Below are positions 15,127 through 19,967 of a DNA stretch of 37,268 nucleotides, in pieces. The position numbers were made by a program, and so were the translations under genes. Source of the stretch: a virus. The stretch lies in the IMG/VR virus record IMGVR_UViG_3300023220_000597, positions 1 through 37,268 of that record; one strand, written 5' to 3'. The number at the start of each line of letters is the position of its first letter. Position 1 is the stretch's first letter. Below the pieces are notes generated by a model. That model was given only the letters and a program-made list of their open reading frames with translations. It made no database searches and had not been told where the DNA came from.

Positions 15127-15247
15127 TGTTTCCCTTTCCGTTGCCCCGTGGGGCGTAAAGTAATTTCAAATTGTTGTTGACTTAATTTGTAATATTACAT
15201 AAACTGATTTCAATTACAATAGCTAATTATGAAACAAGGTAAAATAA
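15127..15247. promoter_or_regulatory. Divergent promoter region with palindromic operator
   Basis: Rightward promoter: TTGACT at 15177-15182, 17-base spacer, TAAACT at 15200-15205. Leftward promoter: TTGTAA (complement of 15214-15219), 17-base spacer, AATATT at 15191-15196. A perfect 12-bp palindrome TGTAATATTACA (15188-15199) fills the spacer of one and overlaps the -10 of the other, so one bound dimer could close both. CAAATT (15167-15172) and AATTTG (15184-15189) form a second inverted pair around the rightward -35. GCCCC/GGGGC at 15143-15154 forms a short stem in the leftward leader. Confidence 0.55.
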
Positions 15248-15775
15248 ATGGAGAATACGCTATTAGGATATGTGCAAGATAGGTCAAATTTAAAAATGAC
15301 CGCCGCCGATCAGATAGACCTTTTAATAGATCATGGTGTTAAAAAAAGTAGAATTTACGAACAGCATGAGGGGCTAGAGGAAGCAATTAATTCTTGTCGT
15401 GAAGGTTTAACGCTGGTTGTTTGGTCGGGTGCTGTATTAGGTGCTGAGCCGACCTATAACAAAGTGGTTGAGATGCTTGAAGAGCAAGGTGCATTCTTAA
15501 GACTATTACATAAACCGATTGATGTTGATTGTAAGGCGGGTGCTGCGGTGCTTCAAGGCCATAAGGATATAAAGGCCGCAAATAGCGGTAATGGCGAGTG
15601 TAAGGGCCGTAAATTGGATATAACACCTGATCGGGCCAAGCTAATCAAGAAATACGTGCAAGAGGGGCGGACGCAAGCGGAAGCGGCCAAATACTTCAAT
15701 GCATCAACCCGCGCCGTGAGCTACATTATGAATGATAAATACTTTGTTAATCAGAAAAAGGGGAAAAAGAAATGA
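15248..15775 (+). CDS. Serine-resolvase-derived protein with HTH, active site lost
   Basis: A 175-residue protein. Residues 3 to about 105 follow the resolvase/invertase catalytic fold: L-G-Y8 opening, a helix with D21-Q22, E-L-I-like middle, R-E-G-L-T-L-V-V-W59, V-V-E-M-L-E-E-Q-G, then I-D-V-D with a trailing A-A-V-L. Residues about 124-165 form the resolvase-type HTH (ITPDRAKLIKKYVQEGRTQAEAAKYFNAS...). The nucleophile region is disturbed (Y-V-Q-D-R-S in place of Y-A-R-V-S). The usual V-V-x-R-L-D-R-L-G-R is W-S60-G-A-V-L-G-A66, so the catalytic Arg/Asp residues are absent. It is therefore probably a DNA-binding regulator or partner, not an active recombinase. Its stop overlaps the ATG of the Topo VI-A-like gene (ATGA). 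Confidence 0.75.
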   Translation: MENTLLGYVQDRSNLKMTAADQIDLLIDHGVKKSRIYEQHEGLEEAINSCREGLTLVVWSGAVLGAEPTYNKVVEMLEEQGAFLRLLHKPIDVDCKAGAAVLQGHKDIKAANSGNGECKGRKLDITPDRAKLIKKYVQEGRTQAEAAKYFNASTRAVSYIMNDKYFVNQKKGKKK

Positions 15776-16800
15776 ACTATGAATTTACAATGCCTAAAAC
15801 CACCGGGCCTTTACACGAGCGGAGAGAAAGCCGTGTAATGCTGGCTGAAGCTATCGAAGAAATGTCGAATGATACTGGGTACAAGTTTGGGCCTCGTGGT
15901 TGGGCATATTACGCTGAAGGGCTTGGGCTTATAACCAAGGGTGAATTTGCTAGATTTGAAAAACTTCTTACTGATATGCGTAAGGCTGGCGAACTAGACC
16001 CTAACGTAATTGAGGCTGATGTTTCAAGGATTGCAACCACGGTACATGATTATGAAGCTAGTAGCTATGAACCTGAAGGATTTGCTCGTTATGCCGTTGA
16101 CCAAATCAAACCAGAATTGGAAAGTTGGGCTAACAGTTTCCATGAAATTGGCTATTGGGATAATTTAGATTATTACGTGGAAATGATCGTAGAGAAAAAA
16201 GACCTTTTACAAATTTTTCAAGATACTGCTAATCGTCACAAGGTTCGCATTACAAACGGAAAAGGCGACACAGATATTCATTCCCGTTTAGCGATACTGG
16301 AACGATTTCGTGACCATTCCTATGAAGGTAGACGGCCAATTTTATTGGCGATTGGCGACCATGACCCAAAAGGATTGGATATTGTTACTGGTCTAAAACG
16401 CACCCTAATGTCTTGTGTTAATTTAAAAGGGTTGGAATGGGACGATCCAGATTTCGACGTTGTTAATATCGGCCTAACTGCCGACCAAATTAATGAAATG
16501 GGGTTAATGAAAATCCCTAACCTAGAGACTGGTGGCGGTAAAGATTTGGCTGACCGAAAACATGCAGATCATTATAAGCCATACGTTCAGGACTACATTA
16601 ACACCCACGGTGTCTGGAAGGTTGAGGCCAACGCTCTGGTGAGTAATCCTGATGGTGCTATTCAATTATTTGAAGATGCTCTGTCTGAATTTATTCCAAA
16701 CGACCATTGGATAGATCGAAGGGAAGAAAACTCTGAAGGCCGAAGCGCGGTAAGGGAAGAAATTGAACAACTTATGAAAACTTGGACTTTTAATGATTAA
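15772..16800 (+). CDS. Spo11/Topo VI-A-like TOPRIM protein (Mini-A type)
   Basis: A 342-residue protein. Residues 38-75 match the winged-helix 5Y-CAP region of Topo VI-A/Spo11: G-P-R42-G-W-A-Y46-Y47, then GLITKGEFARFEKLLTDMR, with Y47 the likely DNA-cleaving tyrosine. Residues about 135-220 match the TOPRIM domain: V-E141-K-K, then ITNGKGD, then L-A-I-G-D196-H-D198-P-K-G201-L-D-I, the metal-binding Glu and Asp-x-Asp. Topo VI-A works with a GHKL ATPase B subunit; none is encoded here. Stand-alone A-like proteins of mobile elements have been described as Mini-A; their role is not settled. Expected activity would be double-strand DNA cleavage or strand passage at a target. Coupled to the resolvase-derived gene upstream. 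Confidence 0.75.
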   Translation: MNYEFTMPKTTGPLHERRESRVMLAEAIEEMSNDTGYKFGPRGWAYYAEGLGLITKGEFARFEKLLTDMRKAGELDPNVIEADVSRIATTVHDYEASSYEPEGFARYAVDQIKPELESWANSFHEIGYWDNLDYYVEMIVEKKDLLQIFQDTANRHKVRITNGKGDTDIHSRLAILERFRDHSYEGRRPILLAIGDHDPKGLDIVTGLKRTLMSCVNLKGLEWDDPDFDVVNIGLTADQINEMGLMKIPNLETGGGKDLADRKHADHYKPYVQDYINTHGVWKVEANALVSNPDGAIQLFEDALSEFIPNDHWIDRREENSEGRSAVREEIEQLMKTWTFND

Positions 16801-18550: not shown

Positions 18551-19669
18551 TTAAATGTGGGCGCTGTGACGGCCGTCATCGATGATACGCTGTGTGGTTG
18601 CCCGTCTTGCCTGTTTCTCAGTTCTTTTATTATATCGGTCAATTATGGTCTGCACGGATTTGAGGCTGTGGCCAGTTACGCCGGCAATGTCCATGAAACT
18701 TATATTTGCATCAAACATATTCGTTACGGCCGTGTGGCGAAGCTTTCCCATTGTCAAGCCGGCAATGGTTGGATCTTCTTTCGCGGCCAATGCGCGGACG
18801 TCGCGAAATTTCTTGCGCAATGTTTCAATATTCCACGGCTTCCCGGTTGAGGCGCAACATATAATATAGGTGCTTAACGGTGTTGATATTTTTTCAACAA
18901 GCAACCGTTCCTTAAGCCGCGGCGATACCGGTGCGGAAATCAAAGCACCAGTTTTTTTGCGCTCGAAATAAAAACATCCAGCAACGTATATCGGCCAGGT
19001 CATTTCAATTATGTCCGATGGATACTGACCAAACCATTCCATTAATAAAATGGCGGTGCCAATTGATGGGTCAATGTCGTCGGCCGTTGTCACCATTAAG
19101 TCGATCTGCGCCGGCGACCAGATCTCAACAGGCTTTTTTCTTTGGGTTATCCTTTGCTTCGCCCAAGGGTTTAGATCCAGTGTGGCGGCCGCGCCAGGGT
19201 ATCCTGTGCGGATTGCCCATGATGTGGCCGCCTGGCCGGTAGAAACGATGCACTGAGCCTTACCGGGCTGGCTGGTTTCAAATTTATCCTTAAGGCGTGT
19301 GACATCGGCCGCGATGATTGTGTTAAATGTGGCATGGCCGATTTCGGCTTTTATGATCTTTGATCCCTTTATATATAGCTTGCGAGTGTTATCAGCAAGC
19401 TTGGTAAATTCAGGGGATCTTATGAAATCATCGAGTAGTGCAGATATGGTTTTATTAAGCACCGGGCCATTATCGATTTTCGCATTACCGGCCTGCCAGG
19501 CGGCAAGCTTTTTATTTTGCTCGAAAGCTTCAAACATTGCCTGATCTTTATTATTTGACAGCCGTTTAATTTCCCAACCGGCATCGCGCAAATCTTTTAT
19601 AGGCTGCCAGTAATAACGCTCGCCGTTTTTTGATGGCTTTATTGTGAAATATTTAATGTTGATTTTCAT
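18551..19669 (-). CDS. int: Tyrosine-family integrase
   Basis: A 372-residue protein. Start set at ATG 19669 (AGGAG site); an open frame extends upstream without a ribosome site. Residues 70-155 are the SAM-like core-binding region. The catalytic domain follows: K238/K239 in R-K-K-T-G, L-R311-H-T-A-V-T, T-G-H334-S and the nucleophile Y346 in D-R-Y-N. Two residues are unusual: the segment that normally carries the first catalytic Arg (G-Q-R-x-x-D type) reads G-Q-Y216-P-S-D, and the first His of the H-x-x-R motif is G308. It catalyses site-specific recombination of attP with the host chromosome. Activity depends on whether another Arg substitutes. It overlaps the upstream zinc-finger gene by 17 bases. 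Confidence 0.85.
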   Translation of the reverse strand: MKINIKYFTIKPSKNGERYYWQPIKDLRDAGWEIKRLSNNKDQAMFEAFEQNKKLAAWQAGNAKIDNGPVLNKTISALLDDFIRSPEFTKLADNTRKLYIKGSKIIKAEIGHATFNTIIAADVTRLKDKFETSQPGKAQCIVSTGQAATSWAIRTGYPGAAATLDLNPWAKQRITQRKKPVEIWSPAQIDLMVTTADDIDPSIGTAILLMEWFGQYPSDIIEMTWPIYVAGCFYFERKKTGALISAPVSPRLKERLLVEKISTPLSTYIICCASTGKPWNIETLRKKFRDVRALAAKEDPTIAGLTMGKLRHTAVTNMFDANISFMDIAGVTGHSLKSVQTIIDRYNKRTEKQARRATTQRIIDDGRHSAHI

Positions 19670-19967
19670 GGCTTTTCTCCTGTGGTATATTCCAGTTGAC
19701 CCGTTCAATCGGCATGTTGAATGACTGTCTATGGGAAGTGTGGTCATCCTGTAGGAATATGCCGATCTGGTGGCAGAGGTTTGATAGATCCTCTTTTTTC
19801 CTTCTTCTTCGCCAGGTCATGGCCAGGTCATATATAATAGCGCCGCGGGATTGGCGGCGGTTATTGAATGCCTTGCGACACTTGATTGAACAGAATTGTT
19901 TCCAAGCCTTCTGGCTTAACCCAGTGCTGCATTCTTTGCATTTGGTGGTGGTTGGTGCTTTTTTCAT
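19653..19967 (-). CDS. FCS-type zinc-finger protein, possible excision/regulatory factor
   Basis: A 104-residue protein starting at ATG 19967 behind an AAGGGG site. Residues 10-30 are C-x2-C-x12-C-x3-C with F-C-S-I-K-C-R, an FCS-like zinc finger, followed by a basic stretch (RRQSRG, RRRRKK) suited to DNA binding. It lies in one operon with the integrase and overlaps its start, a typical place for an excisionase or an integration regulator. Its function in this family is not known to me. Confidence 0.6.
   Translation of the reverse strand: MKKAPTTTKCKECSTGLSQKAWKQFCSIKCRKAFNNRRQSRGAIIYDLAMTWRRRRKKEDLSNLCHQIGIFLQDDHTSHRQSFNMPIERVNWNIPQEKSHENQH

Follow-up and report, generated by a model that had tools for sequence, protein, structure and literature searches.

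The two genes considered here lie on the plus strand of a 37,268-base virus record from IMG/VR, which may be incomplete and is referred to as a whole as the window. Among its proteins are matches to portal, head-tail adaptor, tail, terminase, primase and integrase families of phages, so that the window, judged by its gene content, appears to come from a temperate tailed phage, and its head-tail adaptor is similar to those of Methylophilales and Pelagibacter phages. The upstream gene (15248..15775) encodes a 175-residue protein that is very likely a degenerate small serine recombinase, i.e. the relic of a resolvase or invertase, and the downstream gene (15772..16800) encodes a 342-residue stand-alone relative of Topo VI-A and Spo11 that is assigned below to the Mini-A family. 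Both reading frames are found where the earlier note had placed them, and its naming of the two components, as a resolvase-derived protein and a Topo VI-A-like protein, was correct. The relic gene starts the two-gene unit and lies downstream of a divergent intergenic region; 5' of the unit, a consensus scan picked up a possible sigma-70-like promoter, TTGACT-17-TAAACT (15177..15205, plus strand, 9/12), which is a weak candidate since the number of such sites in the region is not above that in shuffles. As read from the sequence, the stop codon of the first gene and the start codon of the second overlap in the four bases ATGA (15772..15775, plus strand), from which the earlier note had concluded that the two proteins are made together. 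The overlap is indeed present; however, exact 4-base overlaps join 9 of the 38 same-strand neighbours in the window (counted on a simple gene set), so that this one is ordinary in its surroundings, implies translational coupling at most, and is weak evidence of a partnership.

The assignment of the 175-residue protein is based on its match to the PHROG 125 DNA invertase family with an E-value of 5.1e-5, accompanied by a match to the Pfam Resolvase family at 0.01, which is under the gathering cut-off. When compared by hhalign with three phage invertases, the protein gave 54.7 against a best of 24.2 among 200 shuffles, and its N-terminal 110 residues alone gave 37.4 against a shuffle best of 21.8; the invertases had been picked for matching this very protein, which makes the comparison somewhat favourable and leaves the PHROG match as the independent line of evidence. 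The order of the parts, an N-terminal domain followed by a C-terminal helix-turn-helix (HTH), is collinear with that of small serine recombinases such as the Tn3-type resolvase and the Hin/Gin/Pin invertases. Unlike these enzymes, the relic lacks the catalytic motifs and part of the long helix region and would be no functional recombinase: in the alignment YVQDRSN stands for YxRVST, HEGL for RPGL and SGAVLGA for LDRLGR, a Ser near position 13 aligns with the catalytic Ser only if a gap is introduced, and approximately 15 residues are absent from the region of the long helix. The single-sequence AlphaFold model of the protein is poor (pLDDT 47.6), with a confident HTH at about residues 125-165. 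The earlier description of a protein that keeps the resolvase fold and HTH while lacking the active-site Arg residues is thus borne out for the motif loss and the HTH, whereas the fold, given the poor model outside the HTH, rests on sequence profiles. On these results, the protein is very likely a small serine recombinase that is no longer catalytic but retains a DNA-binding end. No relatives of it were found in IMG/VR, nor among 289 genomes from a single bacterial class, the latter search having been run without a positive control, and plasmids and phages yielded weak matches only, mostly to annotated recombinases and invertases. The presence of the HTH and the position of the gene at the head of a unit that follows a divergent intergenic region suggest that the relic is most plausibly a separate DNA-binding protein, acting as a transcription regulator.

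The founding paper on Mini-A is that of Takahashi et al. 2020 (doi 10.1093/nargab/lqz021). The family has been described in phages and archaeal viruses as a group of Topo VI-A/Spo11 relatives without a B subunit (PMC7614492, PMC8185306, PMC11302465), which according to the reviews is functionally uncharacterized; its defining features are taken here from these reviews, and the member drawn in Fig. 4 of PMC7614492 is that of Pseudomonas phage NP1. The 342-residue protein matches PHROG 6247, annotated as "DNA topoisomerase", with an E-value of 3.9e-38 over residues 21-336. Its relatives were detected by tblastn in 46 phage records, and further ones are present in ten IMG/VR contigs (at 66-81% identity) and in two bacterial genome contigs; a related query retrieved 76 phage records, NP1 among them. 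Comparison of the group of the window with that of NP1 by hhalign resulted in a probability of 100 and an E-value of 2.4e-40 over 287 columns. By its homology to the published phage group, the 342-residue protein is, at the level of sequence, a member of Mini-A. The Pfam search did not connect it to Top6A or Spo11, from which its sequence is too diverged, the NCBIfam search gave no matches, and searches of PDB sequences with the single protein or with a profile returned nothing relevant. Like the NP1 exemplar, it is a truncated, stand-alone phage homologue of Topo VI-A without a B subunit and with the same catalytic residues; it differs from the published Mini-A in a longer segment at about residues 246-276, which it has in common with its Cellulophaga relatives. 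With members outside its own close subgroup it is about 20-29% identical, forming a distant sequence group. The close subgroup comprises, besides the window, the loci L001, L002, L003, L005, L007, L009, L024, L029 and L030, whose copies are 66-81% identical to that of the window and whose flanking genes are mostly unrelated, as if a single gene had been transferred between phages.

The residues R42, Y46, E141, K142, D196, D198 and E285 are invariant in 21 diverse Mini-A sequences, whereas Y47 is variable. The catalytic set of the Topo VI A subunit and Spo11, which share the Toprim fold, corresponds to R42/Y46 and E141/D196/D198 of the window protein: in Spo11 it consists of R131, the catalytic Y135, E233, D288 and D290, and in Top6A of R102, the catalytic Y106, E202, D254 and D256. 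The spacing of an Arg followed at +4 by a Tyr is therefore common to Spo11, Top6A and Mini-A and, together with the alignment, points to Y46 rather than Y47 as the probable nucleophile. The earlier claim that the A-like protein keeps the nucleophile and metal residues of its family accordingly stands for the family and the metal acids and has to be corrected for the position of the nucleophile, since the Y47F control that had been suggested aims at the wrong residue. In Top6A, a fourth acid, E342, clasps R102; by the aligned ranges, E285 of Mini-A is located near the position of E342 and may act as the corresponding clasp acid.

An AlphaFold model built from the 21 sequences reached a pLDDT of 86, and a Foldseek search of the PDB with this model returned Topo VI-A first. 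Alignment with VIA-align gave Z-values of 10.3 for Topo VI-A, 9.2 for a nuclease of C. glutamicum (8b7f) and 7.6 for Spo11, and a fold search of BFVD was not informative. These structural matches span residues 127-309 and hence include a Topo VI-A-like Toprim domain with the metal acids E141, D196 and D198, whereas the winged-helix half is barely covered; the winged helix with its catalytic Arg and Tyr is recognized by motif, and the placement of Y46 thus rests on the alignment and the spacing.

Strand passage by type IIB enzymes such as Topo VI normally requires the B subunit. No GHKL ATPase (PF02518) was found in the window, a possibly incomplete record, or in ten relatives, the same search having found this family in 14 of 14 control genomes. 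This confirms the earlier statement that the A-like protein comes without a B subunit, fits the view of Mini-A as an A-like protein that stands alone, and sets the window protein apart from Top6A and Spo11, which have a B or Top6BL partner. It also bears on the idea that Mini-A is an ATP-free decatenating or relaxing topoisomerase resolving the replicating phage circles, for which the retention of the full set of Top6A catalytic residues and the report of one ATP-independent enzyme, a Topo VIII described in PMC7614492, may be invoked. With no candidate ATPase in the records searched, and given the normal dependence of type IIB strand passage on the B subunit, such an activity is considered unlikely.

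The earlier note had further proposed that the dead resolvase takes over targeting or dimerization while the A-like protein makes double-strand breaks or passes strands, and the co-occurrence of the two genes had been set beforehand as the check on which this proposal was to stand or fall. PF00239 was found beside Mini-A in none of 29 records scanned (window included), the sole match in these records being a 570-residue frame at 22.6 kb, far from the Mini-A of that contig. The relic of the window falls below the sensitivity of the PF00239 model, and a phmmer search with the relic as the query was therefore added; over all the open reading frames of 59 loci it matched only the copy in the window and three invertases that had been fetched deliberately, giving no match beside any other Mini-A, and against eleven whole relatives the same query yielded nothing meaningful. 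Resolvase-derived neighbours are thus absent by both methods, in 28 records other than the window in the case of PF00239, so that the proposal fails the check set for it, and a conserved pair of resolvase and Mini-A was rejected on the basis of both the family search and the sequence searches of relatives. The closest Mini-A, in locus L001 (81% identical), is flanked on one side by an ERF annealing protein and on the other by a YqaJ exonuclease, on a contig that has only one other, weak match to the window over 17 kb. These two proteins were also rejected as general partners of Mini-A, ERF being present in 1 of the 29 records and YqaJ above the cut-off in 2, adjacent to Mini-A only in L001. 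The same outcome was obtained for any other conserved partner within 3 kb, as the 433 open reading frames in that range around Mini-A in 42 loci include no family that is shared by more than 3 of the loci.

The occurrence of an 81% identical copy in an otherwise unrelated contig and the lack of a recurring neighbour family imply that Mini-A moves between phages as a single gene, its resolvase neighbour in the window being local, and with no relative showing the same pairing, the supposed two-component system probably amounts to no more than a pair of adjacent genes. A genuine partnership in the lineage of this phage, with the dead resolvase binding Mini-A, directing its cleavage to the resolvase's own sites and standing in for the B subunit, could nevertheless be argued from the adjacency and 4-base overlap of the genes and from a relic that has lost catalysis and retained its HTH. 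Against the nine such overlaps in the window, the different neighbours of the closest Mini-A, the lack of a resolvase beside any other member and the failure to find relatives of the relic in IMG/VR, this appears very improbable, and slightly less credence still is given to its more specific form, in which a dead serine recombinase came to guide a Spo11-like enzyme to specific sequences, creating a site-directed maker of double-strand breaks that works without an ATPase subunit.

Phage early regions are generally rich in genes of DNA metabolism. Such genes are found near Mini-A in several phages: besides ERF and YqaJ at the closest relative and the Sak4-like and Cas4-domain proteins of NP1 (see below), in Fizzles the neighbours include a Cas4 exonuclease, a recombinase and a RuvC-like resolvase, the neighbourhood in MA9V-3 includes RecA, and DNA polymerases are located nearby in several others. 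Recombination genes accompany Mini-A in some phages only, with ERF and YqaJ absent from most, and the replication or recombination context is therefore suggestive and not universal. This context nevertheless speaks against Mini-A being a nuclease of the MksG/JetD kind, used in attack or defence to cut host, plasmid or rival phage DNA. The rank of the C. glutamicum nuclease 8b7f (Z 9.2) among the top structural matches is in line with such a role; however, no PADLOC defence model, including those for the nucleases of Wadjet/MksBEFG and Gabija, matched either protein at an E-value of 0.1, and the nuclease role is regarded as improbable.

Several further arrangements were observed around Mini-A. 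In NP1 (L060:3989-7678) it abuts the gene of a Sak4-like annealing protein, and a Cas4-domain exonuclease is encoded some 2 kb beyond. A tyrosine-integrase-like gene lies about 0.4-1.8 kb from Mini-A in the window (18551-19747), L008 (9441-10784) and L029 (9404-10834), and a C-terminal integrase-like frame, assigned by eye, is located about 1 kb upstream of it in L062 (61-360). In three phages of Bacteroidota hosts, an SbcC/RecF-like ATPase is encoded within 3 kb of Mini-A (L013:2127-3395, L014:243-1685 and L045:513-1892); since the breaks made by Spo11 in eukaryotes are processed by proteins of the Rad50 type, these neighbours may merit attention.

The reading that accommodates these results best, with a probability of approximately 0.7, is that Mini-A is a homodimeric enzyme of the Topo VI-A/Spo11 type which serves phage replication or recombination and spreads as a single gene, the relic being a non-catalytic HTH protein and no dedicated subunit. 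In the model proposed here, two copies of Mini-A would clasp a DNA duplex and form composite active sites, in which Tyr46 of one protomer would act together with the Mg-binding E141, D196 and D198 of the other, so that both strands would be cut with the Tyr linked to the 5' ends, following which the breaks would be resealed or passed to recombination proteins. The process would most likely serve the replication or recombination of phage DNA, and for want of an ATPase subunit, cleavage that feeds recombination, or cleavage followed by resealing, seems more likely than strand passage. The upstream gene would represent a former small serine recombinase that lost catalysis and persists through its HTH as a DNA-binding protein, most likely in a regulatory role, and its operon with Mini-A would be the product of local gene order. 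Of all this, the analysis itself establishes the family membership, the conservation of the residues, the match of the Toprim half to the known fold and the lack of a conserved partner, whereas dimerization, cleavage, the biological role and what the relic does are inferred.

The pairing hypothesis is thus unsupported, and the A-like protein is a member of a described family in which it represents a new subgroup. For this widespread and uncharacterized viral relative of Spo11, the case of the window adds a subgroup that is well conserved (66-81% identity) in phages that are otherwise mostly unrelated, and it fixes Y46 as the predicted nucleophile and thereby as the residue to mutate. That Mini-A appears to travel alone speaks against a dedicated adjacent partner.
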